Shown: positions 6,800 to 53,259 of the stretch, in pieces
Layout of the letters: every line of letters starts with the position of its first letter
Numbering within the stretch: the first letter of the stretch is position 1
NCBI RefSeq assembly: GCF_003946345.1
Contig: NZ_RHNY01000007.1
Location: 62,001 to 126,000 of the forward strand
Reading direction: 5' to 3'
DNA from: Levilactobacillus tongjiangensis
GTDB taxonomy: Bacteria > Bacillota > Bacilli > Lactobacillales > Lactobacillaceae
DNA: 64,000 nucleotides
Notes under the pieces: generated by a model
Told to the model about the DNA's origin: nothing
What the model saw: only the letters and a program-made list of their open reading frames with translations
The model's database searches: none
Made by a program: the position numbers and the translations under genes

Positions 6800-6983
6800 G
6801 CCTCCGGTGGCCGGGACTGGGGACCGCTGTGGGGACCGGCGCAAGCCTGAGAAGCGGTCTTGCCCCTCGGTTAGAAGCCTCGGATAATGCCCCGAGTCTC
6901 CTAGCCGTCCCACAGTGTAACCTGGCCCAAAACGCCAGGCAACACTGTTGTCACTGCGGTCCCCAGTCCCAGTCACCTGCGGC
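6800..6983 (+). repeat. Branched palindromic element E, copy 1
   Basis: Outer arms near-identical over 27 bases (GGGACTGGGGACCGC and its complement). Inside are a GCAAGCC-TGAGAAGC-GGTCTTGC hairpin, a CTCGG/CCGAG hairpin and an AGTGT..CCTGGC/GCCAGG..ACACT hairpin. Lies between the divergent ABC operon and degV. Confidence 0.85.
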
Positions 6984-7156
6984 TACTTTGAGCTGATGAC
7001 AATTAGTTATGCGTTGAAAATTACGGGCCATCGTGATGATTGTTTCTATAACAGTAAGCTGCATTGATGGATGAAGGGAATACTGACTGCCTTTCAGAGG
7101 TGTCTGTGCTGACAAATGTGCTGTTACCCGGTTGCACTAAACCGCTCTGAAATTAT

Positions 7157-7186
7157 TGTTGGTCGTCACCCAATTTTTGGTATACT
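7157..7186 (+). promoter_or_regulatory. Candidate promoter of degV gene
   Basis: TTGTTG (7157-7162), 18 bases, TATACT (7181-7186). If used, the element at 7222-7393 lies in the 5' untranslated leader of the degV-like gene. Confidence 0.5.
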
Positions 7187-7221
7187 GGACGATAACGGTT
7201 GATGGTTAAGCACAAGTTAAG

Positions 7222-7393
7222 CCGGAGGCGGGCAGGTTGGGGCCAAATGTGAAAATGGCGTTAGTTAGTGGGTTGCTAGCTTACGGCATGGGCGACTTTG
7301 AAGACAGGTGGGTTCTCCTGGCTTCAAATCGAGCGAGAAGCCCGGTTCTCAGGCTGAAGCGTCCCCACCGCAGGCCCCAACCTGTCCGCCGGA
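7222..7393 (-). repeat. Branched palindromic element E, copy 2
   Basis: Outer arms GGCGGGCAGGTTGGGGCC and GGCCCCAACCTGTCCGCC. Opposite orientation to copy 1, and the closest relative of copy 18 (48269-48447). The inner TTTGAAG/CTTCAAA and GTTAGTTAGT/GCTAGCTTAC helices are visible. Confidence 0.85.
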
Positions 7394-7456
7394 GCGCGAC
7401 CATTACAATTACAATACTTAAAACAATTTTGAATCAGTACAGCAAGGAGGCTGCTC

Positions 7457-8350
7457 ATGAAGATTGCAATCCTGACGGACACGTCGGCCGGTATTGCCTT
7501 TGATGAGGCTAAACAACGACACATCCACCTGTTATCAGCACCAATCATGTTTGGTAACCGGCAGTATCACGAGTACGAAGACTTGAGTACCGCGGATTAT
7601 TATCGGTTGATGCGGCTATCTAAGTCTAAAAAAATGGTGCCAACCGCACCGCAATTGTCCATGCAGACGATTCAGGCGGCTTGTGCTGAGTTAGCTCAAA
7701 ATGGGGTGACTGACGTCATCATCATTGGGCCATCACTTGGTATTTCGGGCTTTGTGAATACGCTGGCCGCGTTCGTGGAAAACATCACTAGCGTCCACGT
7801 GCATCCCTGGGATTCACGCGGTATCTTAACCACCATGGGTGAACAGGTTCGCTTAGTTGCGGCTTTGGCCGACCGGGGGGCTACCATCGATGAAATCTTT
7901 GAGCAGTTGACGAAGCTGCGGGCCACCACCCACAGTGCCTTTGTGATTGACTCCATTAAGCCACTGTTACGGACCGGTGCGGTAAATCCTAGCCATAGTC
8001 CTGGTCCGGCACCAATTTTACCCGGCAAACCGATTCTGGTCTTCGAATCGAACGGGAAAATGCGGGTCGCTGGGAGTGCTTTGCGGTTGAAAGGGGCTCT
8101 CAGCGATTTCTTAGATGATTTGGCAACCGACATTGCTGGGGTCGCTCCGGTCAAGGCAACAATTCTGAACGCTGACCAACCGGAGACCACCGCACAATGG
8201 GTAGAGACCGCTCAAGAACGCTTTCCTACCGTGACTTTCGAGACGGCTTTGATTGGCCCTAGTTTTGGTGTTCACGTCGGTGATGGTGCCATGGGCCTTG
8301 CTTGGTGCCAAGATTATCGCAGCCTGCTAGCTCCTGAAAATGAGAATTAA
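7457..8350 (+). CDS. DegV-family fatty-acid-binding protein
   Basis: A 297-residue DegV protein. Members bind a fatty acid between two lobes and, as FakB subunits, present it to the kinase FakA for phosphorylation and entry into phospholipid synthesis. The start motif KIAILTDTSAGI, the PTAPQLSMQTIQ motif (about residues 63-74, usually TSQPS), the helix-start IIGPSLGISG and the C-terminal GPSFGVHVGDGAMGLAW fit the family. AAGGAGG precedes the ATG by seven bases. FakA is not in the window and the ligand is unknown. The PSHSPGPAPILPGKPIL loop near residue 175 is in the place of the usual KxGR.. linker. Confidence 0.85.
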   Translation: MKIAILTDTSAGIAFDEAKQRHIHLLSAPIMFGNRQYHEYEDLSTADYYRLMRLSKSKKMVPTAPQLSMQTIQAACAELAQNGVTDVIIIGPSLGISGFVNTLAAFVENITSVHVHPWDSRGILTTMGEQVRLVAALADRGATIDEIFEQLTKLRATTHSAFVIDSIKPLLRTGAVNPSHSPGPAPILPGKPILVFESNGKMRVAGSALRLKGALSDFLDDLATDIAGVAPVKATILNADQPETTAQWVETAQERFPTVTFETALIGPSFGVHVGDGAMGLAWCQDYRSLLAPENEN

Positions 8351-8363
8351 ATTAAAATTAGGG

Positions 8364-8392
8364 TTGACAGGCCCATTTCAAAATGGTTAACT
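8364..8392 (+). promoter_or_regulatory. Promoter of the second TrpXYZ-like operon
   Basis: TTGACA (8364-8369), a 17-base spacer, TTAACT (8387-8392). Transcription would begin near 8399, giving a leader of about 400 bases. Confidence 0.75.
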
Positions 8393-8430
8393 GGTAATTG
8401 TAAATTGATAAATGAAAGGGATTATGACTT

Positions 8431-8493
8431 ATGAAATTAATCAGCCTAACTCATTTAAATAACCAGTTTGCCTTTAGCTTTTTCTTTAGATAG
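8431..8493 (+). CDS. Phe-rich leader peptide ending QFAFSFFFR
   Basis: A 20-codon frame starting at the ATG at 8431, ten bases after AAAGGG. Five of the last eight residues are Phe (codons at 8467, 8473, 8479, 8482 and 8485), followed by Arg and TAG. The stop codon shares its last base with the first arm of the downstream hairpin series. The design parallels the enterobacterial PheL leader peptide, although Firmicutes normally use a T-box for this purpose; no T-box consensus is seen here. An overlapping 12-codon frame at 8424 has worse ribosome-binding-site spacing. Confidence 0.75.
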   Translation: MKLISLTHLNNQFAFSFFFR

Positions 8494-8680
8494 CGTTTGT
8501 ATTCATTTCGTTGGATACGAACGCACCGCACAATTGCGTTTGTATCTATCGATTAGCTAAAGTTTTTCAGCATGACTTAGCGCCAGATAGATACGGGTTA
8601 ATCTATCTGGAGAAATAATATCGGGCCCGATATACACCAGGTAGATTCTACTCAGAATCTATCTGGTGTTTTTTGTTTTT
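8493..8680 (+). promoter_or_regulatory. Seven-segment transcription attenuator
   Basis: Mutually exclusive pairing segments, in order: S1 GCGTTTGTAT (8493-8502); S2 GATACGAACGC (8514-8524); S3 GCGTTTGTATCTATC (8536-8550); S4 CCAGATAGATAC (8583-8594); S5 ATCTATCTGG (8601-8610); S6 CACCAGGTAGATTCT (8635-8649); S7 AGAATCTATCTGGTG (8654-8668). Each segment is complementary to both neighbours. S6:S7 is a 15-pair terminator followed by TTTTTTGTTTTT. With S1 free the chain resolves as 1:2, 3:4, 5:6 and the terminator cannot form. With S1 covered by a ribosome at the stop codon it resolves as 2:3, 4:5, 6:7 and transcription ends. This gives readthrough when ribosomes stall at the Phe codons. The mechanism is inferred from base pairing only. 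Confidence 0.75.
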
Positions 8681-8805
8681 CTGGCAGCCCTGGACGCAGG
8701 GTTACCGCACTGGAAACTGGTTATAAATTTACCAATTAGTCTTAACTAAATAACGTTCCGTGACCGGGACGACAACGAAATCACATATTCTTGGAGGAAT
8801 TGATT

Positions 8806-9774
8806 ATGAAAAAATTACTTATGAGTGGCATTGCCTTATTAGGTTTAGGATTGGTTTTAGCAGGGTGTTCCAGCAAGTCGACCGCCAGCAACGGCAACTT
8901 AAAGGTTGGGATGTTGCAGGTCGTGCAGCACGGGTCACTCGACGAGGCTCGGCAAGGATTCAAAGCCGGTTTGAAGCAGGAATTGAAGGCCCATCACAAG
9001 TCGACTAAGGTGACCTACCACTACTTAAACGCACAGGGTGATCAAGCTAACTTGAATACCATGAGTCAACAATTGGTTCAACAAAAGAATGATTTATTAG
9101 TTGGTATCGCCACCCCGGCCGCTCAAGCCTTAGCCAAGAAGACGAAGACCACACCAACGTTGGTCACCGCTGTGACTGATTTAAAGTCAGCTGGGCTGGT
9201 CAAATCTAACAGCAAGCCGCAGACCAACGTCAGTGGAACGAGTGATATGACGCCGGTGGGCCTGCAACTCAAGTTATTGGCTAGCATGGCCAAAGGCAAC
9301 AAGCCACTGGGGGTGATGTATAACTCTTCGGAAGAAAATTCCGTCCTACAAGTGAAGATTGCTAAGGCGTACGCCAAGAAACATCATTTGAATTTGAAAA
9401 TTGTCAGCGCCACTAGCACCAACGATGTTACCAGTGTGTTGGCTGGCTTGACCGGCAAGGTATCCGGTCTCTACTTACCAACCGACAACTTGATGGCAAG
9501 TGCCATGAAGACCATCGGCCAAAAGGCTAAGGCTGCCAAGTTACCAGTCGTCACTGGATCGATTGAAATGGCGCAAGATGGTGGGACCGCTACTTACGGC
9601 ATCAACTACTACGACTTGGGCAAGCAGACCGGGAAGATGGCCTACGACGTCTTAGTCAACAAAAAGAAGCCACAAAACATGGCCGTTCAAGAATCTAAGA
9701 AATTGCACTTATACATTAACCAGACCAACACCAAAGCAATTGGCATGAAGCCTAGTCAAATTACGAAACCTTAG
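8806..9774 (+). CDS. ABC transporter substrate-binding lipoprotein, TrpX-like
   Basis: A 322-residue lipoprotein of the ABC_sub_bind family. The ATG at 8806 is used because GGAGG lies nine bases upstream. The lipobox LAGC (cysteine at about residue 21) predicts lipid anchoring outside the membrane. The mature part starts LKVGMLQVVQHGSLDEARQG and carries the same landmarks as the paralogue at 5448-6440 (VGIATPAAQALAKK, LYLPTDNLMASAMKTI, YGINYYDLGKQTGKMA). Ligand is inferred to be an aromatic amino acid, most likely phenylalanine, from the Phe-rich leader peptide upstream; nothing in the protein itself proves this. Confidence 0.88.
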   Translation: MKKLLMSGIALLGLGLVLAGCSSKSTASNGNLKVGMLQVVQHGSLDEARQGFKAGLKQELKAHHKSTKVTYHYLNAQGDQANLNTMSQQLVQQKNDLLVGIATPAAQALAKKTKTTPTLVTAVTDLKSAGLVKSNSKPQTNVSGTSDMTPVGLQLKLLASMAKGNKPLGVMYNSSEENSVLQVKIAKAYAKKHHLNLKIVSATSTNDVTSVLAGLTGKVSGLYLPTDNLMASAMKTIGQKAKAAKLPVVTGSIEMAQDGGTATYGINYYDLGKQTGKMAYDVLVNKKKPQNMAVQESKKLHLYINQTNTKAIGMKPSQITKP

Positions 9775-9789
9775 AAAGGGGTAACTTCT

Positions 9790-10761
9790 ATGTTAATCAC
9801 CAGTATCGGGCAGGGCCTCCTGTGGGCACCCCTAGTCATCGGCGTTTTCATCACGTTCCGCATCTTAGATATTCCCGATTTAACCACCGAGGGGAGCTTC
9901 CCTTTGGGGGCGGCTGTGACGGTCAGCGCCATGTTGAGTGGTCAGTCCGCAGTCACTGCCAGTTTACTGGGCTTCCTCGCTGGTTGTGTGGCCGGTTGGG
10001 TCACCGGTATCCTCGACACCAAGCTACACATGCCATCCTTACTCGCCGGTATTTTGACGATGACCGGGCTGTACTCTGTCAACATGCACATCATGGGTAA
10101 GTCTAACGTGCCGCTGTTATCACAGAAAGTGTTGACCAACTACTTACCAGCGACGTGGTCGGTCGATTTGCAAACGATTGTCGTCGGCGCACTGGTCACG
10201 GGGGTCGTGGTGGCTGTCTTGATCTGGTTGTTCAAGACGCGGTTAGGATTGTCCTTAATGGCCACTGGGAACAACGCGGCTATGAGCTCAGCCAACGGAA
10301 TTTACACGGACCGGATGGTCATTATTGGCTACATGGTTTCCAACGGGTGTATCGCCTTATCCGGTGCCCTGATTGCGCAAAGCAACGGCTACGCTGATAT
10401 CGGGATGGGAATTGGGACCATCGTGATTGGCCTGGCCTCGGTCTTGGTCGGTGAAATCTTCTTACGGGGCCGGCAGATTTGGTTACGGCTGTCCGCCATG
10501 GTTCTGGGGGCCATCATCTACCGCTACTTATTGACAGTGGCGATGGGGTTAGGTTTTCCAGTCGACGACCTCAAAATTCTTTCGGCGGGAATCTTAGTCA
10601 TTGTCATTTGCCTGCCGATCATTCGTAACAAGTACCGGACGCGTCAACAACTTAAACGTTACCTCAAACAGTTAGGAGCCGATGAACATGAAGCAGAACC
10701 AATCAGCAGTCTTAAGCGTCAAGCATCTCCAGAAGGTCTTCTTTCCCGGGACACCAAATGA
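9790..10761 (+). CDS. ABC transporter permease, TrpY-like, with C-terminal extension
   Basis: A 323-residue permease paralogous to that at 4552-5451: ITSIGQGLLWAPLVIGVFIT at the start, DIPDLTTEGSFPLGAA, and SNGYADIGMGIGTIVIGLAS near residues 200-220. AAAGGGGTAACTTCT precedes the ATG. The protein is about 25 residues longer than its paralogue. The last 27 codons (EHEAEP onward) overlap the ATPase gene by 80 bases in another frame, far more than the usual few-base coupling. This suggests loss of an ancestral stop codon near 10690. The tail is hydrophilic and cytoplasmic by topology. Confidence 0.88.
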   Translation: MLITSIGQGLLWAPLVIGVFITFRILDIPDLTTEGSFPLGAAVTVSAMLSGQSAVTASLLGFLAGCVAGWVTGILDTKLHMPSLLAGILTMTGLYSVNMHIMGKSNVPLLSQKVLTNYLPATWSVDLQTIVVGALVTGVVVAVLIWLFKTRLGLSLMATGNNAAMSSANGIYTDRMVIIGYMVSNGCIALSGALIAQSNGYADIGMGIGTIVIGLASVLVGEIFLRGRQIWLRLSAMVLGAIIYRYLLTVAMGLGFPVDDLKILSAGILVIVICLPIIRNKYRTRQQLKRYLKQLGADEHEAEPISSLKRQASPEGLLSRDTK

Positions 10762-11461
10762 ACGGCACGTCTTAAAGAACGTGAGCCTGACGATTGAGCC
10801 GGGAGACTTTGTTTCAGTCATTGGGAATAATGGGGCTGGGAAATCAACCCTCCTGAACACGATTGCGGGGACGTTAACGGCAGATGCGGGGGACCTCACG
10901 TTGGCCGGACACAGCGTGACCAAAAAGTCTGTGGCATACCGGGCCAAATGGTTATCCCGTGTCTTCCAGGACCCTAAGATGGGGACGGCGGGTGAGCTGA
11001 GTGTGGCACAGAATTTAACACTGGCTCAGCGGCATACACATAGTATGAGTCTCCATTTGTACCGCAACGCGAAGCAAGAGGCCGCGTATCAGGACCTATT
11101 ACGGCCCTTACAAATGGGCTTGGAAGACCGACTGACGACGCAGGTGAAGTACTTATCTGGTGGGCAACGTCAGGCGCTATCCCTGTTAATGGCAACATTG
11201 AGTCATCCGGAATTGCTGCTGCTAGATGAACACACGGCGGCGTTAGATCCACAAACCAGTGCTAAGGTGATGGAGCTGACACAAAAGATTGTCGAAACGA
11301 ATCATTTAACAACCATGATGATTACCCATAAAATGAGTGACGCATTGACCTATGGCAACCGACTCGTCATGGTACAAGATGGGCAGGTCAAGCTAGATGT
11401 CCGCGGTGCCGAGAAGCAAAATCTTCGGCAAGACGAACTGATGGCCCTGTTTGCTGAATAG
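10682..11461 (+). CDS. ABC transporter ATPase, TrpZ-like
   Basis: A 259-residue ATPase completing the second TrpXYZ-type importer. Walker A is GNNGAGKST, the Q-loop FQDPKMGT, the signature LSGGQRQ, Walker B LLLLDEHTAALDP and the switch histidine in MITHKMSDAL. The ATG at 10682 follows TTAGGAGCCG; a second ATG two codons later is possible. It starts inside the permease gene. No terminator is seen between its stop and the element at 11485-11660. Confidence 0.9.
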   Translation: MNMKQNQSAVLSVKHLQKVFFPGTPNERHVLKNVSLTIEPGDFVSVIGNNGAGKSTLLNTIAGTLTADAGDLTLAGHSVTKKSVAYRAKWLSRVFQDPKMGTAGELSVAQNLTLAQRHTHSMSLHLYRNAKQEAAYQDLLRPLQMGLEDRLTTQVKYLSGGQRQALSLLMATLSHPELLLLDEHTAALDPQTSAKVMELTQKIVETNHLTTMMITHKMSDALTYGNRLVMVQDGQVKLDVRGAEKQNLRQDELMALFAE

Positions 11462-11484
11462 TTGTGGTGTTAGTGGTGGGGAGC

Positions 11485-11660
11485 CGCCTGCGGCCGCCAG
11501 GTGCCACGCTGTTGGGCCCGGTCGAAGCCAAAGAGCGGTCTTCGACCTCGCCTCGCAGCCTCGAAAACCCCGAGTCTGTGAGGTCGGCCCAGCTAGTAAG
11601 CCAGCCCAGAACGCTGACTAACTAGCTCGACACAGCGTAACATCTGGCTGCCTCCGACTT
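11485..11660 (+). repeat. Branched palindromic element E, copy 3
   Basis: Outer arms GCCAGGTG..GCTGT and ACAGCG..CATCTGGC. Inner hairpin GTCGAAGCC-AAAGAGC-GGTCTTCGAC, a CTCG-rich hairpin, and CTAGT..CAGC/GCTG..ACTAG. It begins 24 bases after the ATPase stop. The rest of 11461-12207 holds copy 4, a terminator and no convincing gene. Confidence 0.85.
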
Positions 11661-11955
11661 CAATGTGACTGTAGGTTCGTCAGTAGAGTGGGAACCGTGT
11701 CATGATTCTTACTTGGTGGCAGTGGGTGTGAGTGATGCTGGTACGATGAATTGGAGCTACTTGCCGGTGGATGTGTCAGGAGTTATTGGTAGTCACTCTT
11801 TTGTACGCGGTTGGCTGATTAGAACGGTTCAGACTATCGGTGGGCGTGGCCTGACCAAAAACATCTAGTAATGTTTTCTGCATGGTTGGCGACTGTAGCC
11901 AATTGTTTAAGATGTCGACAGCAAATTGTCTTTGATTTACAGTAAATCTTAGCCT

Positions 11956-12139
11956 GAGGTTGGCAGGGATGGTGGCGGCTGTGACGGTGATGTTGAAGCG
12001 GGTGGGATTCCCGGTTCTACATCACGGGACGAGCTTAAAGACCGCGCGTTCTTGGCGGGGGCTTTAAGTCGAGGAGCAAGACCGCCTTTTAGGCTTGCTC
12101 CGGTCCCCACAGCAGGCGCCATCCCTGCCAACCGGAAGC
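11956..12139 (-). repeat. Branched palindromic element E, copy 4
   Basis: Outer arms GGTTGGCAGGGATGG and CCATCCCTGCCAACC. In element orientation the apex hairpin is GGAGCAAGCC-TAAAAGGC-GGTCTTGCTCC. Paired in opposite orientation with copy 3. Confidence 0.85.
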
Positions 12140-12157
12140 GATAATTTAAAGCAAACA

Positions 12158-12197
12158 AAAAGGTGAGGACCGCCAAGTGGCGACCTCACCTTTCATG
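12158..12197 (-). terminator. Terminator after the CPBP protease gene
   Basis: AAAGGTGAGG pairs with CCTCACCTTT around an inner CGCCAAGTGGCG hairpin. On the minus strand it runs into TTTTTGTTTG, ten bases after the protease stop. Confidence 0.8.
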
Positions 12198-12206
12198 TGT
12201 TTAGGG

Positions 12207-12899
12207 TTATATGAGCGACATTAAATTGTTGAGAAAATGCAACGCAGTACTATACCGAACGTCTTTGAAATGCAGGTACGCGATCCCCAGGACCCACCCG
12301 AGGGCGGAGTACATCAGCAGCGTAAATGAGATGTTGTTCGCGTGCATGAAGCCAAAGATGAGGCCCGAGACCAGGACGCCCAAGAAGTTCATGAGCCTGG
12401 TATTTTTGCTGAAAAAGTAGTTCAGGAAGATTCCGCGAAAAATCATTTCCTCGACGAATGGAGCGAAGAGAATTGCGTAGGCCAGGTTCCAAAATGGAAA
12501 TTGCATGACCTGCTGATTGATGGCCGTTTGGTTGGCGGGACTACTCAGAATGTGGAGACTGGTCAGTACGATCCAAAGCCGTTGGATGGCCATCATCAGG
12601 ACGAAGAATCCCATGAGTTGCCAGAATCGCTGGCTCGTCAGTTTGGTTCGGCCAAAGCCGCGAGGGTTATTAGCGCGCAGCTGTTTATTGTAGCGCCAGG
12701 CTAGAAAAGCTAGCAACAGAGCCGAATAAATCAGCATGGCACCGACCAACCGGTTGGCTAGGTTGGGTTGACTGGCGTGGGTGGTAGCCAGGTCGAGAAT
12801 CAAGCTGTCGACCAGGTAAATAAAGATGAAGCCGATCCAACGCAGACTGCGTAAGAGCCAGTCACCCAGATCCCGCCCCATTTTCGTTAACGTATTCAT
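12207..12899 (-). CDS. CPBP-family intramembrane metalloprotease
   Basis: A 230-residue membrane protein of the CPBP (CAAX protease and bacteriocin-processing, Abi) family, which cleaves substrates inside the membrane and in lactobacilli is often linked to bacteriocin self-immunity. About six hydrophobic segments are visible. The motif 1 glutamates are in PFVEEMIFRGIFLNYF (about residues 138-153) and the motif 2 histidine is in IFGFMHANNISF (about 178-189). No bacteriocin genes lie nearby, so substrate and role are open. It follows the glyoxalase-fold gene by 24 bases and is probably co-transcribed with it. Confidence 0.85.
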   Translation of the reverse strand: MNTLTKMGRDLGDWLLRSLRWIGFIFIYLVDSLILDLATTHASQPNLANRLVGAMLIYSALLLAFLAWRYNKQLRANNPRGFGRTKLTSQRFWQLMGFFVLMMAIQRLWIVLTSLHILSSPANQTAINQQVMQFPFWNLAYAILFAPFVEEMIFRGIFLNYFFSKNTRLMNFLGVLVSGLIFGFMHANNISFTLLMYSALGWVLGIAYLHFKDVRYSTALHFLNNLMSLI

Positions 12900-12923
12900 C
12901 TAACTGAGGGGCCTCCTTATCAC

Positions 12924-13409: not shown

Positions 13410-13432
13410 ACTACCAATATATGTTATGAATA

Positions 13433-15786: not shown

Positions 15787-15990
15787 TTTATGCGGTTGGC
15801 CGTGTACGCCCCCCGTTCGTCCGGACTGGTGGTTTATATTGATGTCAGTGCTTACGGAAGAGCGAGATGTGCGGGATGGCTATTATAAATTCATCTGGTC
15901 GCTGAGCTTAATATACGTGAAGTTCAGCGGTCAAAGTCGTACTGTTTAGACTTCGGTGTGGATGTCAGTTTTGATTAAGTTAAATACAAA

Positions 15991-16033
15991 TTAGCGTTAT
16001 AAACTCTTTTCCGAGTTTATAGCGCTTTTTCTT
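15991..16033 (+). terminator. Hairpin with T tract in non-coding stretch
   Basis: GCGTTATAAACTC pairs with GAGTTTATAGCGC around TTTTCC, then CTTTTTC. The surrounding 15,790-16,120 region holds no convincing gene; the hairpin may end an unrecognised small transcript. Confidence 0.55.
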
Positions 16034-16127
16034 TTACAGGCTTTAGAAACTTTCAGCGATAGTGCCAGATTAACAAGACTTTGTAGCCGGAAGAAGTCAG
16101 GGATGACGCCCGCGGCAGAGAAACTAA

Positions 16128-17167: not shown

Positions 17168-17342
17168 GAGAGTGGGACAGAAGGCGGTTAGTCAATGAGC
17201 ATTAACGTCGATAGACGAATAATCCCGATTTTGGATTGTTTGTCTATCGGGGTTAAGCGGAGTTGACTGCCTGTTGTCGCACGTTTCGACCATAGACGTT
17301 CGGAGTGCAAAATGGGCCTGGGACTTTTGTCCCAGACCCATT
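17168..17342 (+). repeat. Dispersed structured repeat R, copy 2
   Basis: Inverted homologue of 3123-3302. Starts GAGAGTGGGACAGAAGGCGG and ends in the hairpin TGGGCCTGGGAC-TTTT-GTCCCAGACCCA (17313-17342), which on the minus strand is followed by TTTTGC and so can terminate pepX transcripts. Confidence 0.8.
17313..17342 (-). terminator. Terminator after pepX
   Basis: TGGGTCTGGGAC and GTCCCAGGCCCA on the minus strand, loop AAAA, followed by TTTTGC, 16 bases after the pepX stop. It is the hairpin end of repeat R copy 2. Confidence 0.7.
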
Positions 17343-17358: not shown

Positions 17359-19791
17359 TTATTCAGCCAAATGGGGTAATTCCAGCGCTGCGTGTTCCAA
17401 GTTGATGGAGTACTGCAGGTCCTGGTTTCCCCGCACAGTCATACCAAAGTCCGTAGCGTAGATGACCAATCCTAACTGGTGACCCGCTAACAAACGGTAG
17501 TGAGTTGGCTGAAGGGTTACCCGTAAGCGATAGAACTGGTTCGGTTTCAGCTCATCAATCTGGTAGGCGTTGGTCCGATTTTGTAGGTTGCGGTGACCCT
17601 TGGTAATCATCTTCCAGGGCGTAGGGGCTGTCGTCTGAAATTCACGCAGGCTATCTTCGCGCCAGTGGAATCCTTCGTCTAATGATACGCGAAGTGGGGT
17701 GGGTGAAACGCCTAGCCGCTTAGCCTCGCCATAGTCGACCAGCTGAAAACTCAGGAGACCAACGGGTTGGTTAACGGCGACCTCTAAGGTGATGGTTGGC
17801 TTTCCATCGAGGACTTGATCCTTGGTCAGGACGGCCGACTTGAACCGTAACCGGTGGCCCTTCAGTGGGGAATCGTCGTTTAACAGGTCTCGTTGCCAAC
17901 TGGTAACGTCGTGGGTGTACGCTTGATACTGTGCATCTGGCAATTGGTCGTTAAAGCTGACCGCTGCCTTGAGGGGGGCGTTGGTCGTGGCGACCAATTC
18001 CTCTGGCTGCAGGTTCAACGTGGTGACGGGGTTAGTTGGCGCGTCCCAGTCTTCATAACTGTGCCAAGTTTCGGGTTGCACGTTGTCTTGAATAATGACG
18101 TTTGGCAACAATGTTTCAGCCTGATTGTCGACGTCCAGCAGCTCGTGGGTCAGCCACAGGTTGACGATGTCGGTGTAGTCGATCGAGCGAAAGGCGTTGA
18201 TATAAATGTGTTGGCCCTGGTGAAGAATCAGCTTCTTGGTAACGGGCAAGTCGCGAACAGCGTTCCACAAGTTGTTCACGTTGCGGGGTTTCACGTTCCA
18301 GTCGTTCAGGCCATGGACCAGTAACAAATCAGCCTTGATATTCTTCGCGTTCTTCAGGTAGTTGCGGGCGTCCCAGAAGCGATTGTAGCTGCCAGTCGTC
18401 CGGTCTTGGCCGCTGGTAATGGCAGCCAGGTCAGCCTGCCACTTGGCCTGAATGCGGTGGTAGTCGCCAGCTTGCAGTTGACGGCTGAACGTTTCCTCGG
18501 CCAGTACATCCGCATCCTCACCGGGGAAACCGCCGGGGGCAACGACCAAACCACCATCACGGTAGTAGTCGTACCAGTTGGAAATAGCAGCTTCACTGAT
18601 GACCGTCTTCAGACCGGCTACTCCGGTCGTCGCGGCGGCCGTGGCCAGCGTTCCCAGGTAGGAACGGCCGGTCATGGCGATGGCGTGATTGCTCCACCAA
18701 GCGGGAATCGCCTGGGTGGCTTCTCTGCTGGTAAAGGCAGTGCGATTACCCGCTAACCATTCGATGATTGCTATGGTGGATGTGGTTTCCTCAGGGTCCC
18801 CAGTGGTGCGGAGGCCGTCAGAATCCAGCGTACCAATTCCAGCAGCGTAGACGATGGCAAATCCACGAGCCAAGAAGTAGTCGTTTAACGTGTAGGAACT
18901 TTCCCGGGCAAAGCTTTCCGTGGCCGTGGTGGTCGAAGTCGTCACGGGACGAGGAGCGGGAATTGGCGTCGTATCTGGTTCAGCTAACACATCCTCACGC
19001 GTTAGATGGTTGGGTTCTTGCGGTGTCAGGGGTACGTTGACATCGTGCATCATCTGGTCACCAGCCTCGTCGTTTGTCCCCTGATTGTAAGGACTAGCAG
19101 TGTAGAGAACGGGGACCTTTAACCCAGCGGCAGTTTCCGCCGGCCGCAAGATTTCGGCCTTTAGCAGGTCCCGTTTACCATCGTGGTCCGTATCCTGGGG
19201 ACTTTCGACGTAAACGACTTCACGAATCAACTGAGTCGTGTCGAAGACGGCCTGGGCTTTACCATTAAAAATCAGTGGCTTGGTGACAGCGGCATCGTGG
19301 AGGAATGGTGCAAAGTAGCCGTGGGTCGTCAGGTGGTCTAAGAAAGACTGACCATTTTTAGTGTGGGTCGTTAGAAGCAGGTACCAAGCTTGCTTCAACT
19401 CGGCCATCGTAAAATTAGCGGCCTGGTGATCACTGACGGGCAGCTGGATTTTCGCCATAGCTACCAGCGGGTCAGCGAGGTCAAAGTCGTCGCCGACAGT
19501 GAAGCCCAGCCGTTGCAGAGCTAAGTTGTAAAATACGGTGACGGGAACGGCATCGTGCTGGCTTAAGAAGTCAGCACCGTCCCTGTCAGGGGTGGCCATT
19601 AGGTTGTGGAGCTGTTGGCTTACCCGTTGATCGGTGGTAAATTCTGGCCAGCTACGATCATAGAAGTCCCAGAGCAGTTGACTGGGGGTCGTGAGGGTCT
19701 GATTGGTATCATCTAAAAAGTGAATCATGTGAAGTTCGTCGAGGGCCTGAGCAGGTGCTGTGGGCCGAATGGCAAATTGTTGGTTACGCAT
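17359..19791 (-). CDS. pepX: X-prolyl dipeptidyl aminopeptidase PepX
   Basis: An 810-residue serine peptidase of family S15, which removes X-Pro dipeptides from peptide N-termini in the cytosol. It has the usual lactobacillus length (about 790-810). The N-terminal helical domain starts [20 protein letters not shown]. The catalytic domain carries [20 protein letters not shown] and the nucleophile in [14 protein letters not shown]. The acid lies in [13 protein letters not shown] and the His in [10 protein letters not shown]. The C-terminal part ([10 protein letters not shown] to ALELPHLAE) is the beta-sandwich. It begins 37 bases after the stop of the APC permease on the same strand with no terminator between, so the two are likely co-transcribed. 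Confidence 0.97.
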
Positions 19792-22625: not shown

Positions 22626-22777
22626 CGCCTTACCGGGCAAGGAAAATAGGCTGGAACACTGTGAACACGATTTTGAGCCAAAGAGCGGTCTCAAAACTCG
22701 GTTCTACCTAACCACGGGAAAGCACCGTGCTAAGGTAGTGCCACGGCTGAGCCTATTTCCCTCGCCCTCACGGCTAA
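22626..22777 (+). repeat. Branched palindromic element E, copy 5 (short subtype)
   Basis: Outer arms GGAAAATAGGCT and AGCCTATTTCC. Apex hairpin TTTTGAGCC-AAAGAGC-GGTCTCAAAA, then CTACCTAACCACGG/CCGTGCTAAGGTAG. The third hairpin is absent. Closest to copy 10. Confidence 0.85.
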
Positions 22778-22867: not shown

Positions 22868-23013
22868 AGGGCGTCAAATATGGGCTCAGGCGCTTCGTTG
22901 TTCTTAGCCGTTTACGGCTTAGAACAAGGCCAAGCTTTGAGACTCACGTTGTTGGTGAGGCTCAAAGTTGTGCCGGCACCGTTCCAGCCCATATTTGGCG
23001 CCCGGCAAGGCGG
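22868..23013 (-). repeat. Branched palindromic element E, copy 6 (short subtype)
   Basis: Outer arms GGGCGTCAAATATGGGCT and AGCCCATATTTGGCGCCC. Inner TTGTTCTTAGCCGT/ACGGCTTAGAACAA hairpin and CTTTGAG/CTCAAAG. Ends 53 bases before the Fur-family gene; paired with copy 5. Confidence 0.85.
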
Positions 23014-25335: not shown

Positions 25336-25510
25336 GGAGGAGGGCAGGGATGTAGCCAGCCGTGAAAGTGGTGTTGGCTGGTGACTTTCCAGCTTACAGC
25401 ACGGGCGACTTTGAAGACACGTGGTTTTCGTGGCTTCAAATCGAGCGAGAAGACTGGTGTTCTGCCAGTCTGAAGCGTCCCCACAGCGGGTGGAATCCCT
25501 ACCCTCCTCC
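25336..25510 (-). repeat. Branched palindromic element E, copy 7
   Basis: Outer arms GGAGGAGGGCAGGGAT and ATCCCTACCCTCCTCC. Inner GACTTTGAAGAC..CTTCAAATC and CACG/CGTG helices. The only solitary copy. The rest of 25,154-25,335 and 25,511-25,670 shows no gene. Confidence 0.85.
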
Positions 25511-28719: not shown

Positions 28720-28897
28720 GCCTCCAGGTTCCAGGGCAGGCGTGGGGATCGCCTGCGGCCTGAGAAGCGGTCCTCCGGATCGACTTGAAGCTTTGCTCAA
28801 CCCGCAAATCTCCAAGCTTGTCCCGTGGTGTAACCTCGGAAAAAGCGCCGAGATAACACCACTTTCACTGCTGAAACCCGCCCTGACAACTTCCGGC
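28720..28897 (+). repeat. Branched palindromic element E, copy 8
   Basis: Outer arms CAGGTTCCAGGGCAGGCG and CCGCCCTG. Inner ACTTGAAGCTTTGC/GCAAATCTCCAAG and GTGGTGTAACCTCGG/CCGAGATAACACCAC hairpins. Confidence 0.85.
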
Positions 28898-29019: not shown

Positions 29020-29163
29020 GAGAGGTCACAGCGGATGGGCTCAGGCGCCTCGTTCTTCTTAGCCGTTTACGGCTTAGAAGAAGACCAAGTTTTAAGAATC
29101 GTGTTTTTCGAGGCTTAAAATTGTGTCGGCACCGTTCCAGCCCATCCGGTGTGACCGGTAGGC
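29020..29163 (-). repeat. Branched palindromic element E, copy 9 (short subtype)
   Basis: Outer arms GTCACAGCGGATGGGCT and AGCCCATCCGGTGTGAC. Inner CTTCTTAGCCGT/ACGGCTTAGAAG hairpin. Closest to copy 6, paired with copy 8. Confidence 0.85.
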
Positions 29164-32318: not shown

Positions 32319-32330
32319 TCATTGCTTGTC

Positions 32331-32480
32331 GCCTTACCGGGCGGAGAAAATAGGCTGGAACGCTGTGAACACGATTTCGAGCCGAAGGACGGTCTCGAAA
32401 CACGGTTCTGCCTAACCACAGGAAATCCCGTGCTAAGGCAGTGCCACGGCTGAGCCTATTTTCCCTGCCCTCCCGGCTAA
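32331..32480 (+). repeat. Branched palindromic element E, copy 10 (short subtype)
   Basis: Outer arms GAGAAAATAGGCT and AGCCTATTTTCCC. Apex TTTCGAGCC-GAAGGAC-GGTCTCGAAA. It begins 12 bases after the oppA copy 1 stop, before that gene's terminator. Confidence 0.85.
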
Positions 32481-32570
32481 CATAGTGATGGTTTAGCAGA
32501 TGAGCTGTTGGATTGTGTCTTTCCTAGCTAACATGAATTAGTAAACTAAGTTACCCGTAAGTTGTGCCAC

Positions 32571-32742
32571 CAACACCCAGCAGACAGCGCCCCGTGGGGC
32601 AGACCTGAAGCCTGAGAATCGGTCTTCAGGGCACCTTCGAACCTCACCAAAATCGTGCGTTTCAAAGATTGACCGCGCTCTAAGCAGGGCTAGTTCACCC
32701 AGCTAAAACCGCCGACACGGGGCACTATCTGCTAGGTGCTGG
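32571..32742 (+). repeat. Branched palindromic element E, copy 11
   Basis: Outer arms CAGCAGACAGCGCCCCGTG and CACGGGGCACTATCTGCTAG. Apex CCTGAAGCC-TGAGAATC-GGTCTTCAGG. Confidence 0.85.
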
Positions 32743-32828
32743 CTCGATGTGGGTCATTGTACGCATACTGGTTATGTTAAGGTGGAATTGTCAGCTTGAG
32801 TATGATCAACCTAAAATTTAATCAGATA

Positions 32829-32866
32829 AAAGGTCACGGGAAATAGCTTTCCGTGACCTTTTTGTC
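32829..32866 (+). terminator. Terminator between oppA copies 1 and 2
   Basis: AAAGGTCACGGAAA-type stem: AAAGGTCACGG pairs with CCGTGACCTTT around GAAATAGCTTT, followed by TTTGTC. Confidence 0.8.
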
Positions 32867-32961
32867 TGATTTCAGTTATCTAAATCTAAAGGTTTAAGCC
32901 GTGACACACACTATGCCTGATACAGCAAGAATTGGGGTTTAGTCAAACGTAGTGGGAAATT

Positions 32962-33133
32962 GCCGCCTTACCGTTCGCCAAATTTGGACTGGAACGCGGT
33001 GGGAAGGACGGGACAAGCCAAAGGGCGGTCTTGCCCCTCGCTTGAAGCCGCAAAGCACGTCTTCAAGTCGCCATTTTCAAGAAAATCACTTAAAAATCCC
33101 ACGGCTTAGTCCAAATTTGGTTCACTCTCGGCT
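32962..33133 (+). repeat. Branched palindromic element E, copy 12
   Basis: Outer arms CCAAATTTGGACT and AGTCCAAATTTGG. Apex GGACAAGCC-AAAGGGC-GGTCTTGCCC, then CTTGAAG/CTTCAAG. Confidence 0.85.
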
Positions 33134-33207
33134 ACCTAGTTGAGCGTCAATAATATTGCGTAAGTGCTGTCATTTAAGCTAGCCTAGTTTTCTAAGAACC
33201 CGTTTAA

Positions 33208-33382
33208 CCGGAGGCAGTCAGAGGTGGAGCTTGCTGTGTCGACGCTGTTAGCCGATTTTCGGCTTACAGCGTGGGACGTGTTTGAAGACTGGTGGTTTTT
33301 CCAGGCTTCAAACCGAGCCGAAGGACCGCTTTTCAGGCCGGAGGCGTTCCCCACAGCAGGTGGAACCTCTGACCGCCGCAGG
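33208..33382 (-). repeat. Branched palindromic element E, copy 13
   Basis: Outer arms GGCAGTCAGAGGT and ACCTCTGACCGCC. Inner GCTGTTAGCCGA/TCGGCTTACAGC and TTTGAAG..CTTCAAA hairpins. The whole 32,319-33,560 interval contains four elements, one terminator and no gene. Confidence 0.85.
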
Positions 33383-33567
33383 TGGCAGGGTGAGGCTATT
33401 TTTAAGTCGATAATGGTTTTCGAACTTTCAATTTTTAGTGATTAAAATGACTAAACCTTAGAAAATCCTTAGAATTTCTAATTGAAATTAAATATTTTAT
33501 TTGGCCTGGTAAGGGCGGTATTAAAGTATTTGCAATGACCTGAACAAATTAATATTAAATTTCGCTA

Positions 33568-33596
33568 TTGATTCTAATTGTTTTATCATTTAATAT
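33568..33596 (+). promoter_or_regulatory. Promoter of oppA copy 2
   Basis: TTGATT (33568-33573), 17 bases, TAATAT (33591-33596). The spacer is nearly the same sequence as before copy 1. Confidence 0.65.
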
Positions 33597-33646
33597 ATCC
33601 TCAACGCTTAGTTTCCTAAGTATTTACATAGAGGGGTCGGAATTGT

Positions 33647-35272: not shown

Positions 35273-35403
35273 CTGATTAGCGTAAAGATAGACGGTGTCA
35301 TCAGCAATTGCCTTACACGGCCATTTAGAGGCCCTCTGGCCGATCCACTTTAATCGGTGGCTGAACTGACCTGATTGGGAGAACAACTTTAACAAAATTA
35401 TGA

Positions 35404-35440
35404 GAGCGGTGAATCGGGGTGACCTGATTCACCGCTTTTT
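35404..35440 (+). terminator. Terminator after oppA copy 2
   Basis: AGCGGTGAATC pairs with GATTCACCGCT, followed by five T residues. Confidence 0.85.
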
Positions 35441-35620
35441 AGGCGGAAAATGGATATTAACCGTGTAGTGATTGTAAATTCCGGCTAATTGTTGTATATG
35501 TTATACAAGAAAAGGGTGTTTTACCTGTATAAAATGTGAAATCAAATTTTAATTTTTATTTTGAAACGCCTATGTATCAAGCTTTGTGAAAACTATTTTA
35601 AACTAAATTAGTAATTAGCA

Positions 35621-35649
35621 TTGATTTTAATGGTTTTCTAATATACAAT
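35621..35649 (+). promoter_or_regulatory. Promoter of oppA copy 3
   Basis: TTGATT (35621-35626), 17 bases, TACAAT (35644-35649), with an AT-rich upstream tract. Probably drives oppA copy 3 and, by readthrough, oppBCDF. Confidence 0.65.
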
Positions 35650-35711
35650 TGGAAACATCAAATTTGAGGTGTCAATTTATTTCTCAAACAACTAAGAGGG
35701 GTTGGATTTAA

Positions 35712-37340
35712 ATGAAGATCAATTCGGCAGTCAAATTAGGGACAGTCGCAACGTTCGCCGCAGTATTGTTGGCAGCGTGTGGCTCATCCTCAAGCAGTTC
35801 CAGCGAGGCAAGTAAACAAACCTTAAACTGGATGGAAAACTCAGCATTACCATCAATGGACTTATCTACGTCCACCGACGTTGTTTCAGGGGAAACAGAA
35901 AACAACACCAACGAAGGTTTACTGCGTTTCGGTAAGAACAGTAAGACTCTTCCTGGTGTCGCCAAGAGTTATACCAAGTCTAAAGACGGTAAGACCTACA
36001 CCTTCAACTTACGTAAGTCTAACTGGAGTAACGGTGACAAAGTAACCGCTAAAGATTTCGTTTATGCCTGGCAACGCACCGTCAATCCTAAGACCGCTTC
36101 ACAATATTCTTACATGTATGCGCAAGTTAAGAACGCTAACGCCATCATTGCCAAGAAGAAGCCTGTCTCTAGTTTAGGGGTTAAGGCGGTTGGCAATTAC
36201 AAGCTGGTCGTTACCTTAACGCAAGCAACTAGTTACTTCCCAGCACTGGTTGCTAGCCCAATGTTCTTCCCACAAAACCAATCAGTTGTTCAAAAGTACG
36301 GTAAGAAATACGCTACGAACGCTGCCAGCAACGTCTACAACGGCCCATTCAAATTGACTTACTGGACCGGGACGTCTGATAACTGGACCTTGAGCAAAAA
36401 CACTAAGTACTGGAACGCAAAGAATGTTAAACTAAAGAAGATCAACTTCAAGACGATGAAGGATCCACAAACTTCATTGAGCCAGTACCAGAGTGGCAAG
36501 CTTGACGCAACTTACTTGAGTGGTCAACAACCAAAGAACTACAAGAACAGTAAGCAATACGTTGAACGGAAGAGTGCTTCAACCTTCTACATTGAATTGA
36601 ACGAAAAGAAAGATTCAATGATGAAGAACAAGAAGGCTCGTCAAGCCTTATCATTAGCTATCAACCGGAACCAATTCGTCAACAAGGTCTTAGCCGATGG
36701 CTCAACTGCTGCGAAGGGCTTAGTATCAACTGGTTTAGCTTCTAAGAATGGCAAAGACTTCAACACTGCAGCCGCCGTTCCTTCCGCTACCACCCAAGAC
36801 TTGACCAAGGCTAAGAAGCTTTGGAAGCAAGCTTTGAAGGAAACCGGTCGGAAGAGCTACTCACTTACCTTAATGGCTGACGATACGCCAGCTGGTAAGA
36901 ACTCTGCTGAATTCATCCAAAGTCAATGGGCTAAGTTGGACGGCTTGAAGGTTACCAACAGTAACTTACCATTCAAGACGCGGCTTGCTCGTTCACAAGA
37001 TGGGCAATTCGATGCCGTTATCTCCGCATGGGGTGCCGACTTCCCAGACCCAATCTCATTCTTGTCCCTGTTTACTTCTGGTAACTCATACAACAACGGG
37101 AAATGGGCTTCAAAGAGCTACGACAAGTACGTCAAGGCTGCATCTGGTAAGGATGCGAACAACGCTGACGCTCGTTGGAGTGACATGGTCAACGCACAAA
37201 AGACCATCTTGAACGACCAAGGAATCATCCCCGTTTACCAACAAGGTAAAGCACAATTGGTTAAATCCAATGTTAAGGGCTTGATCTACTTCCCAACCGG
37301 CGCTAACTGGGACTTCAGTTCAGCTTACATTTCTAAGTAA
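35712..37340 (+). CDS. oppA: Oligopeptide-binding lipoprotein OppA, copy 3
   Basis: A 542-residue paralogue with lipobox LLAAC, motif NNTNEGLLRFGKNS, YTFNLRKSNWSNGDKVTAKD and end YFPTGANWDFSSAYISK. Its codon use is markedly biased to frequent codons (AAG, AAC, GTT, GCT, TCA), more than in copies 1 and 2, which suggests the strongest expression of the three. It is nearest to oppB. A leaky terminator at 37403-37437 would lower expression of the transporter genes relative to the binding protein. Confidence 0.92.
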   Translation: MKINSAVKLGTVATFAAVLLAACGSSSSSSSEASKQTLNWMENSALPSMDLSTSTDVVSGETENNTNEGLLRFGKNSKTLPGVAKSYTKSKDGKTYTFNLRKSNWSNGDKVTAKDFVYAWQRTVNPKTASQYSYMYAQVKNANAIIAKKKPVSSLGVKAVGNYKLVVTLTQATSYFPALVASPMFFPQNQSVVQKYGKKYATNAASNVYNGPFKLTYWTGTSDNWTLSKNTKYWNAKNVKLKKINFKTMKDPQTSLSQYQSGKLDATYLSGQQPKNYKNSKQYVERKSASTFYIELNEKKDSMMKNKKARQALSLAINRNQFVNKVLADGSTAAKGLVSTGLASKNGKDFNTAAAVPSATTQDLTKAKKLWKQALKETGRKSYSLTLMADDTPAGKNSAEFIQSQWAKLDGLKVTNSNLPFKTRLARSQDGQFDAVISAWGADFPDPISFLSLFTSGNSYNNGKWASKSYDKYVKAASGKDANNADARWSDMVNAQKTILNDQGIIPVYQQGKAQLVKSNVKGLIYFPTGANWDFSSAYISK

Positions 37341-41646: not shown

Positions 41647-41835
41647 TCCGCCTTCGGTGGCCAAGATTGGGGCCTGCTGTGGGGACCGGAGCGAGCCAGA
41701 GTGCGGTCTCGCTCCTCGACTGGAAGCCACGGACAACCCACCGCGTCTCCCAGCTCGTCCCACGGTGTAATCGCGCTTAGAACGCGCGATAACACCGTCG
41801 ACACAGCTGCCCCCAATCTTGACCACCTGCGGCTT
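41647..41835 (+). repeat. Branched palindromic element E, copy 14
   Basis: Outer arms CCGCCTTCGGTGGCCAAGAT and ATCTTGACCACCTGCGG. Apex GGAGCGAGCC-AGAGTGC-GGTCTCGCTCC. Third hairpin CGGTGT..TCGCGC/GCGCGA..ACACCG. Confidence 0.88.
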
Positions 41836-41909: not shown

Positions 41910-42028
41910 ACGGCAGAGCTAATACCGGCACCTGCTGTGGGAACCGGCTCGTCCCACGGTGTAATCGCGCTTAGAACGCGCTAGCACCGTCGACACAACT
42001 GGCACTAATCTCGGTCACTTGCGGCTTA
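41910..42028 (+). repeat. Branched palindromic element E, copy 15 (internally deleted)
   Basis: Closely similar to copy 14 but lacks a block corresponding to 41690-41753, which are precisely the first two inner hairpins. The third hairpin and both outer arms remain. The sequence after it (CGGCTTACATTTGTCGGTGA) also resembles that after copy 14, suggesting tandem duplication followed by deletion. Confidence 0.8.
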
Positions 42029-42326: not shown

Positions 42327-42515
42327 GCCGCAGGCCGTCAGGGCGGGTGGCCGCAGTGACGGTGGCGTTAGCTCGGTGGTTTTTGCCGAGGTTACGCCAC
42401 GGGACGAGCTTGGAAACTCGGTGGTCTTCCGAGGTTTCAAGTCGAGCCGGAGGACCGGTTTTCAGGCCAGAGGCGGTCCCCACAGCGGCCACCCGCCCTG
42501 ACGGCCGAAGGCGGC
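42327..42515 (-). repeat. Branched palindromic element E, copy 16
   Basis: Outer arms GGCCGTCAGGGCGGGTGGCC and GGCCACCCGCCCTGACGGCC, exact over 20 bases. Inner CTTGGAAACTCGG/CCGAGGTTTCAAG and GTGGCGTTAGCTCGG/CCGAGGTTACGCCAC hairpins. Confidence 0.9.
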
Positions 42516-42534
42516 CACTTTCATTCCAGCTAAG

Positions 42535-43194: not shown

Positions 43195-43303
43195 CTCAAT
43201 CTCTCCTTTGCGTGTCTTGAAGCTGAAGCGGGTGGCCTACTGGTCACTCTAGGGCCTGGCAAGTAAAACTGCCAAGCTCACACTGGTTAATATCTTACCA
43301 GTT

Positions 43304-47787: not shown

Positions 47788-47805
47788 TTTGGCTGGAGCT
47801 GGATT

Positions 47806-47994
47806 GGCCGCCTTCGGCCGCCAGGGCGGGTGCCCGCTGTGGGGAACGCCTACGGCCTGAGGGGCGGTCCTCCGGCTCGGTTGGCAGCCTCGGAAAATCA
47901 CCGAGTCTGTCAACTCGTCCCGTGGCCTAACCTCGGTAACCCACCGAGCTAACGCCACTTTCACTGTGGCCACCCGCCCTGGCGTCCTGCGGCT
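47806..47994 (+). repeat. Branched palindromic element E, copy 17
   Basis: Outer arms GGCCGCCAGGGCGGGTGCCCGC and GTGGCCACCCGCCCTGGCG. Inner CCTCGG..ACCGAG and GTGGCCTAACCTCGG/CCGAGCTAACGCCAC hairpins. Between the helD stop and its terminator. Confidence 0.88.
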
Positions 47995-48091
47995 ACGATT
48001 GGCTGTTCAATCACAGATTGGTGATTGGGCAACAATTAGGTTAGCAGTAGGTTGTTCAGGTTCGTGGTGTTTTAACAGATTAATTTGATGA

Positions 48092-48127
48092 GAGGCCTCG
48101 GACATATTGTGTCCGGGGCCTCTTTTG
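48092..48127 (+). terminator. Terminator after helD and element copy 17
   Basis: AGAGGCCTCGGACA pairs with TGTCCGGGGCCTCT, followed by TTTGTG. Confidence 0.8.
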
Positions 48128-48268
48128 TGTGGGTGTTGGTGATTGCTTGCGCTGATGTAGTAGGGTGAAGCTCTTGTAAGTAGAACTGTGGTTAATCGCG
48201 TTGGACCAGTATGAAGTATGCTACGGAGCTTGGCGGGACACTGGAGATGCAATAGCTCGCAACTTCAG

Positions 48269-48447
48269 TGGAGGTGGCCAGGGGTGGGGGCAGCCGTGAC
48301 AATGGCGTTAGCTAGTGGGTTGCTAGCTTATGCCATGGGCGACTTTGAAGACAGGTGGGCTGGCCTGGCTTCAAATCGAGCGAGAAGCCCGTACTTTGGC
48401 TGAAGCGTCCCCACAGCAGGCCCCGCCCCTGGCCGCCGGAACGCGCC
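48269..48447 (-). repeat. Branched palindromic element E, copy 18
   Basis: Outer arms GGAGGTGGCCAGGGGTGGGG and CCCCGCCCCTGGCCGCC. Shares GTTAGCTAGTGGGTTGCTAG and ATGGGCGACTTTGAAGACAG with copy 2. It lies upstream of the coaA minus-10 box (TATAAT, 48516-48521). Confidence 0.88.
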
Positions 48448-53257: not shown

Positions 53258-53259
53258 AA

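Follow-up and report, generated by a model that had tools for sequence, protein, structure and literature searches.

Repetitive extragenic palindromes (REP), bacterial interspersed mosaic elements (BIME) and REPINs are the closest working analogue of the elements described here, and BIME units bind gyrase and IHF. Among Firmicutes, structured interspersed repeats such as bcr1 of Bacillus cereus and BOX of pneumococcus are discussed mainly as RNA-forming elements, and integron attC sites, which are associated with gene cassettes and the integrase IntI, each form one hairpin of 57-141 nt. GTAG repeats, arranged as dimers with variable spacers and accompanied by RAYT transposases, have been reported from Proteobacteria, Cyanobacteria, Chloroflexi and the PVC group, and neither "Firmicutes" nor "Lactobacillus" occurs in that text (PMC3733652). 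Here we analyze a 64,000-nucleotide stretch of Levilactobacillus tongjiangensis DNA (the window; C41:62001-126000 of genome G000, which comprises 2.72 Mb in 43 contigs) that carries 18 copies of a branched palindrome. The typical unit is an inverted pair, of types A and B, with 5' ends facing outward, around an unconserved spacer. We found no description of this palindrome family in the open-licence literature; the family is real and large and falls within the interspersed palindromic repeats, a kind known in general, of which it represents a new variant that is branched, paired and apparently constrained as DNA.

The palindromes resemble REP, BIME and REPIN sequences (PMC3733652) in being numerous, intergenic and chromosomal, in forming inverted dimers with variable spacers, and in possessing unpaired bases and a GTAG-like foot. 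Unlike those single hairpins of 20-40 bp, they are about 200 nt long and have as many as three side hairpins, their stems change under Watson-Crick compensation, and they show no association with Y1/RAYT genes; of the features of a REPIN, inverted pairs of fixed orientation are present, and a RAYT-type Y1 transposase that accompanies the copies and a short GTAG hairpin are not. One group of palindrome-carrying units, M1, resembles a miniature inverted-repeat transposable element (MITE) in its length of about 590 bp, its 15-bp terminal inverted repeats (TIR) and its 7-8-bp target site duplications (TSD), a likeness confined to M1. In contrast to a MITE family, no autonomous partner with the same ends was seen in G000, 34 of 35 genus genomes have the palindromes whereas only three have a strong M1 left arm, and eight aligned pairs of L. 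brevis share no flanks. The palindromes are intergenic, mobile and conserved in secondary structure, as bcr1 and BOX are generally described to be, but the wobble test below argues for DNA, and we know of no inverted A/B pair plan for either repeat. With attC they share the character of sequence-poor, structure-conserved folded DNA with extrahelical bases, but no cassettes are seen between the pairs read here, a reading that included neither a gene search of spacers under 700 nt nor a search for IntI.

Structure and covariation of the palindromes

Each element comprises a long outer stem, P1, enclosing up to three side hairpins. A short stem, P2 (GGGGAC/GTCCC), encloses hairpins P3 (AGCC-loop-GGTCT) and P4 (GAAGCC-stem-GTCTTC), and P5 carries a TAA/TAA internal loop, such that conserved unpaired bases are found in all three side hairpins, as AGCC..GTCT in two and TAA/TAA in the third. 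Two subtypes, A and B, have the AGCC..GTCT marks in common, and the type B outer stem (GGnCTGGAACG / GGCTGAGnCC) is unlike that of type A. Many copies possess a GTAG-like foot, CCGGCTAC, which reads as GTAGCCGG on the opposite strand.

The copies were first visible from a listing of repeats and inspection of intergenic stretches. Ten type A window copies were aligned (A1) and folded with RNAalifold, giving 38 pairs with a double change in 21, and a covariance model (R1) was built from them; a type B model (R2) was built from 14 sequences. A cmsearch of the window with R1 (E ≤ 5) returned 19 matches, one at chance level (E 0.38) and the others recovering all 18 copies enumerated in an earlier sequence-only reading of this DNA (E 3.6e-30 to 4.6e-5). 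The compensating stems quoted there for copies 3, 4, 5, 10, 11 and 14 are all found in the sequence. Its single shared plan holds as a common structural plan, but the copies are not uniform: 11 are complete type A copies and c12 is a complete type B copy, one side hairpin is missing from each of c5 and c10, c6 and c9 have two, and the remainder are incomplete or divergent. On the canonical strand, 10 copies are + and 8 are -, and all seven window sites with at least two copies start with + and finish with -. The copies and associated features of the window are:

6822..6961, + strand: c1, type A core, with outer arms about 26 nt beyond on each side (R1 131.8 bits; fold z -7.8)
7242..7375, - strand: c2, type A core, inverted partner of c1 (R1 118.1 bits)
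11504..11640, + strand: c3, type A core (R1 121.2 bits)
11974..12117, - strand: c4, type A core, inverted partner of c3 (R1 124.2 bits)
15820..16116, no strand: lost-pair site with outer-arm stubs only, where the Levilactobacillus yonginensis locus L001 has copies at 18332-18474 (+) and 18770-18902 (-)
22649..22753, + strand: c5, type B without the P4 side hairpin (R1 32.8, R2 40.5 bits)
22882..22990, - strand: c6, two-hairpin type B, inverted partner of c5 (R1 39.8, R2 36.0 bits)
25355..25491, - strand: c7, type A core, single (R1 109.4 bits)
28736..28875, + strand: c8, type A core, weak outer arms (R1 107.5 bits)
29037..29143, - strand: c9, two-hairpin type B, inverted partner of c8 (R1 29.9, R2 33.4 bits)
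32353..32456, + strand: c10, type B without P4 (R1 29.1, R2 44.8 bits)
32587..32725, + strand: c11, divergent copy (R1 54.1 bits)
32886..33438, no strand: M1 copy carrying the c12/c13 pair, 89.6% identical to L001 19999-20507, located at a different site
33424-33438: right 15-bp TIR of this M1 copy (2 mismatches; TIR scan), whose left end is degenerate and which has no clear target duplication
32986..33112, + strand: c12, full type B (R2 129 bits, as one of the 14 sequences behind R2; R1 40.6)
33229..33361, - strand: c13, type A, inverted partner of c12 (R1 135.9 bits)
41672..41811, + strand: c14, type A core (R1 133.0 bits)
41930..42003, + strand: c15, truncated duplicate of c14 without P3 and P4 (R1 47.0 bits; 97% identical to c14 over 38 nt)
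42349..42490, - strand: c16, type A core, inverted partner of c14 (R1 136.1 bits)
47832..47971, + strand: c17, type A core (R1 128.8 bits)
48289..48421, - strand: c18, type A core, inverted partner of c17 (R1 122.7 bits)

The fold of c1 reaches -118 kcal/mol, against a mean of -80 for shuffled sequences. An alignment of 137 R1 matches (136 distinct sequences) from 32 searched sources has standard pairs in 93% of cells versus 72% when shuffled, double compensatory changes in 35 of the 38 pairs, and a covariation score of 0.425 versus 0.119 shuffled and at most 0.072 slid, figures that lean towards structure because the alignment was fitted to R1 and 10 of its sequences built R1. The sequence-only reading had also described the outer arms as complementary within each copy and unrelated between most; the complementarity stands (mean score 10.8 within versus 6.3 between copies, 68 of 137 matches), although c3 and c8 pair weakly (8 and 5), but the arms are not wholly unrelated, with a mean left-arm identity of 0.42 over 68 copies and 0.47 over 11 window copies.

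As the reading had supposed, the palindrome belongs to no named RNA class that we could detect: no copy in the window or in seven loci of other genera matches Rfam at gathering, and we reject a known Rfam class on this basis. At E ≤ 5, over window 6700-12300, nothing on the copies passes gathering. The segment 8474-8692 has a sub-threshold likeness to sRNA_2410 (29.8 bits, gathering 61; E 0.053).

Inverted pairs and their gene context

Among 139 palindromes from 23 of the 32 sources searched, neighbors less than 700 nt apart are arranged as 40 '+-', 14 '++', one '--' and no '-+', counts that include orthologous sites more than once. G000 alone, with at least 150 copies, has 20 '+-', four '++', one '-+' (994 nt apart) and no '--' among neighbors within 1 kb. 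Outside the genus, we read 20 stretches from four genera, picked from top matches (L132 because its pair was already visible); 11 have a second copy, always as '+-' and in one case found weakly, by R2, 8 have one copy within the stretch, and L136 has '-' then '+', 589 nt apart. The base-pairing plan of the palindromes is found in Levilactobacillus and in the four other genera from which these stretches come.

In L. brevis (G003), eight aligned units consist of A(+), a spacer without recognizable homology and B(-), in which the palindromes are alike and the flanks unrelated. The MITE pair (c12/c13 type), read on the other strand, also has the A(+)..B(-) order. Local inverted duplication was rejected as the origin of the pairs: over 16 A/A pairs, identity to the own partner is 0.641 versus 0.643 across pairs, and 2875 of 5000 permutations reach or exceed the own-partner value. 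By crude calls of open reading frames (ORF), 118 of 137 copies lack an overlap of more than 40 nt with an ORF of at least 100 aa. An association with gene ends or promoters was rejected on the same crude calls, as the orientations of flanking genes, given for 130 of the 137 copies, are even (38/33/30/29).

Constraint on the fold after insertion

The comparison of the same palindrome between relatives was made on plain pairwise alignments without the model, for 20 of 23 orthologous comparisons (a partial copy, a doubtful ortholog and one unaligned case were left out). Paired positions differ at 67/1457 sites (4.6%), other core positions at 9.8% and apical loops at 73/456 (16.0%). Columns fitted to the model gave 5.3% for paired positions and 20.8% for loops, but loop insertions are unaligned there and we prefer the pairwise figures. 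Between the window and L001 alone, the nearest named relative among the loci compared (99% protein identity, one gene), the values are 2.3%, 6.0% and 8.7%, respectively.

Eight locus comparisons gave a divergence of 9.4% for palindromes, 24.0% for spacers and 13.6% for 100-nt flanks, with the spacer outpacing the palindrome in all eight. In 17 of 22 M1 rows, the two palindromes depart from the consensus by 4.8% and 3.9%, with gaps of 0-0.1%, and the spacer and arms by 11.2-12.6%, with gaps of 3-4%; in the M1 B palindrome, apical loops depart by 12.2% and stems by 4.6%. Paired positions are thus slow relative to loops and spacers at fixed sites, which indicates that the fold is constrained after insertion. 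Because the same insertions are compared, differences in age cannot produce the contrast between palindrome and spacer, and the fast loops are difficult to reconcile with a mutation rate that is low throughout. Double changes at orthologous sites (23 comparisons, one unaligned) number 41, with 30 still paired and 11 broken, against 12.1 expected of any kind; one doubtful comparison contributes 7 of the 30 and 2 of the 11. The suggestion of the sequence-only reading that the folded form is either under selection or a transposition substrate is partly borne out, in that paired positions are constrained in place; a role for the fold in transposition is conjecture.

Watson-Crick pairing without wobble preference

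Watson-Crick pairs are maintained without a wobble preference on either strand. In 33 of the 38 pair columns (137 copies), leaving out five with more than 20% non-Watson-Crick cells, GT and TG total 63 and AC and CA 69. With all 38 columns the totals are 78 and 149, an AC excess that arises because some columns hold subfamily mismatches. The four other genera gave GT 14 versus AC 25 (37 of 38 columns), type B gave GT 4 versus AC 9 (33 best of 90 rows, 32 of 36 columns), and one-sided stem changes of the M1 B palindrome gave GT 22 and AC 38. As a control, the acceptor and T stems of G000 tRNAs (41 distinct sequences entered) gave GT 19 versus AC 1, with stems placed by the best count of standard pairs including G-U and poor stems skipped, which favors GT over AC. 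That wobble is no commoner than A.C, against 19:1 in tRNA, argues against RNA, as an RNA stem should accept G-U; of the two forms offered by the sequence-only reading, RNA or single-stranded DNA, the RNA one is not supported. Both an extruded cruciform, in which a G.T in one strand corresponds to an A.C in its complement, and hairpins on single-stranded DNA during replication fit a Watson-Crick fold that lacks a wobble preference.

Mobility and loss of palindrome units

The palindrome units spread at least partly by transposition, in this lineage within M1, which carries a palindrome pair and in which no coding gene is seen. With 40 candidates scored, G000 holds at least 57 matched pieces of M1, 27 of which are at least 445 bp, and 18 of 21 copies examined possess the TIR pair. 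An exact 8-bp target duplication is found in 4 of 18 and an exact 7-bp one in 4 more, and the mean identity of the flanking 8-mers is 0.56 versus 0.33 with shuffled partners (maximum 0.49 in 2000 shuffles). L001 possesses a pair resembling c12/c13 at a position that lacks one in the window; the window carries another repeat there and is not a clean empty site. TIR and TSD were not seen for the eight L. brevis pairs. A search by eye for TIR pairs 1-3 kb apart with at most 2 mismatches found no autonomous partner with M1 ends in G000, the one genome searched; the single combination (C6 16510/18200) is explained by a nearer partner. G000, G010 and G028 are the only genomes with a strong M1 left arm, and M1 therefore resembles a recent carrier of a palindrome family that is older than itself.

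Units are also lost, through deletions from which stubs of the arms remain. This is the case at 15.8-16.1 kb of the window, where neither palindrome of a pair present in L001 is left between the stubs. One palindrome is missing from each of the M1 copies L050 and L051. At L014 18120-18345 (reference L006 17480-17700), a palindrome with ends TGTAAATGCC / GGCATTTACA has seemingly been inserted into the hairpin of another, the remainder of which was then lost. Beyond the sequence-only reading, the analysis thus adds the inverted-pair unit, subtypes A and B, a MITE vehicle with TIR and TSD, and constraint after insertion.

Distribution

Since 150, 56 or 10 candidates were scored per genome, all copy numbers are lower bounds. 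The R1 search found at least 150 copies in G000, and G003 has at least 148 of type A and at least 150 of type B, with slight overlap between R1 and R2. R1 matches 34 of 35 genus genomes, none of 23 genomes from other families in the order and, across the family, 73 of 301 genomes in 10 of 40 sampled genera (10 candidates per genome, strict filters). Spread by plasmids or phages was rejected, as plasmid records gave no match to M1, a type A copy or the L. brevis unit and phage records none to M1 or a type A copy, in record sets from which those near the window's genome may be excluded. The chromosomal location of the listed matches in G003, G015 and G028, all on contig C1, is weak evidence because this contig makes up the greater part of the G003 and G015 genomes. 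Among the matches listed for the G003:C1 chromosome record, none falls in the initial 149 kb, where about seven would be expected from type B alone.

Elsewhere in the window, a prophage-like region (51899-63854) is opened by an integrase gene (phrog_1) beside two tRNA genes and extends towards the window end, with genes of the RecT-like, exonuclease, DnaD-like and anti-repressor types; we detected no copy of the palindrome in this region, in keeping with the absence from the prophage first noted from the sequence. Three successive ORFs of 541-542 aa (30690-37340) are tandem paralogues whose matching DNA stretches are 67-75% alike, and the c10-c13 cluster sits between the first and second. A separate 142-nt repeat, at 3162-3303 and 17169-17310, is inverted, 94% identical and absent at both sites in L001, and is probably another small mobile repeat.

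Interpretation and alternatives

We consider it about an even chance that these are chromosomal palindromes of BIME/REPIN-like character, but much larger and branched, which spread partly by transposition, are kept as folded DNA and would be read by a putative chromosomal protein. The DNA itself may fold, either as an extruded cruciform or as hairpins on single-stranded DNA during replication, and the inverted pair would put one canonical hairpin on each DNA strand. By analogy with BIME/REP units as nucleoid sites, a chromosomal protein may read the hairpins via the conserved unpaired bases. More tentatively, hundreds of sites on bacterial chromosomes could hold a branched DNA fold, as a cruciform or a cluster of single-strand hairpins and not an RNA or a fixed sequence, under selection in inverted pairs that mark putative binding places of a structure-reading chromosomal protein.

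Several observations weigh against a maintained DNA fold with a reader. We know of no protein that would read the folds and of no phenotype that they may confer; copies show no gene orientation preference; one genus genome (G022) is without a match and another has a single one; and 30 of the 40 sampled family genera are without a match at the setting used. Pairs are lost between close relatives, and the orthologous comparisons reuse loci and species. Apical loops (8.7% between window and L001) are slower than third codon positions (14.0%), so that loops are not fully free, and flanks, which run into genes, outpace palindromes in four of eight locus comparisons and are no faster in the other four. 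The M1 A palindrome, on a fold that deviates from the model, lacks a loop signal (loops 2.0%, 9 sites; stems 3.6%) and has GT 27 over AC 16, and, of 140 one-sided changes between orthologous copies, 46 result in a wobble pair, close to the third that we would expect by chance. Finally, in the orthologous copies L003/L004 and L006/L007, otherwise alike, hairpin tips switch from one to the other of two loop types, TGAGnnnC and AAAGnnC, a sign that copies may exchange tips.

This last behavior would be expected if the palindromes were purely selfish REPIN/MITE-like repeats without host function, whose compensation comes from template switching between arms and exchange between copies, an explanation that we regard as unlikely but worth serious attention. 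M1 is such a MITE, with TIR and TSD, copies turn over between relatives, and the 41 double changes against 12.1 expected are of a kind that template switching, reported to create and maintain hairpins (PMC8794818), can make. By our own reasoning, unbiased arm-to-arm correction should not lower the per-site rate, and slow stems therefore count against selfish repeats: the divergence of apical loops is about 3.5 times that of paired positions, that of spacers is 2.5 times that of palindromes, and stem changes of the M1 B palindrome are nearly all one-sided (2 double Watson-Crick versus 81 one-sided and pair-breaking). The slow divergence of paired positions led us to reject neutral arm correction as the sole cause, unless the correction is biased.

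A rather improbable explanation is that the palindromes form single-stranded DNA hairpins recognized by a recombinase or transposase, as in REP/RAYT or attC systems, with the bulges and GTAG-like foot as marks and the inverted pair as the mobile unit. The conserved mismatches and bulges within variable Watson-Crick stems, the foot present in many copies and the inverted pairs are consistent with such recognition, but the RAYT/TnpA-like transposase that the sequence-only reading proposed to look for shows no association with the copies. Y1_Tnp (PF01797) matches occur in 23 of 35 genus genomes, mostly as frames of about 140-167 aa that we read as IS200-type; the 12 genomes without one (drafts, one 72% complete) all carry copies, and G022 has a match but no copies, and we therefore reject RAYT mobilization. 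A composite transposon between widely spaced '+-' copies was likewise rejected, as 9 of the ORFs in five such stretches match ordinary enzymes in Pfam, with 2 of 9 without family and no transposase family among them. The lack of an unexplained TIR pair 1-3 kb apart in G000 and of any plasmid match also counts against this explanation, and mobility alone leaves the constraint at fixed sites unexplained. Lastly, a structured non-coding or cis-regulatory RNA of an unnamed class would account for the very stable fold, the covariation and the mostly intergenic placement, but it is very improbable given the lack of wobble excess on either strand against 19:1 in tRNA, of a preference for gene 3' or 5' sides and of an Rfam match.

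Covariation is usually taken as proof of RNA function, and here pairing is kept without a wobble excess. The comparison of GT with AC, with a tRNA control, can separate DNA-level from RNA-level constraint and is applicable to other palindromic repeats. If the DNA fold is indeed what is kept, these palindromes would provide, in a harmless bacterium of foods, a natural set of hundreds of sites for testing the action of cruciforms and hairpins in living chromosomes, and would point to an undiscovered protein that reads the folds.

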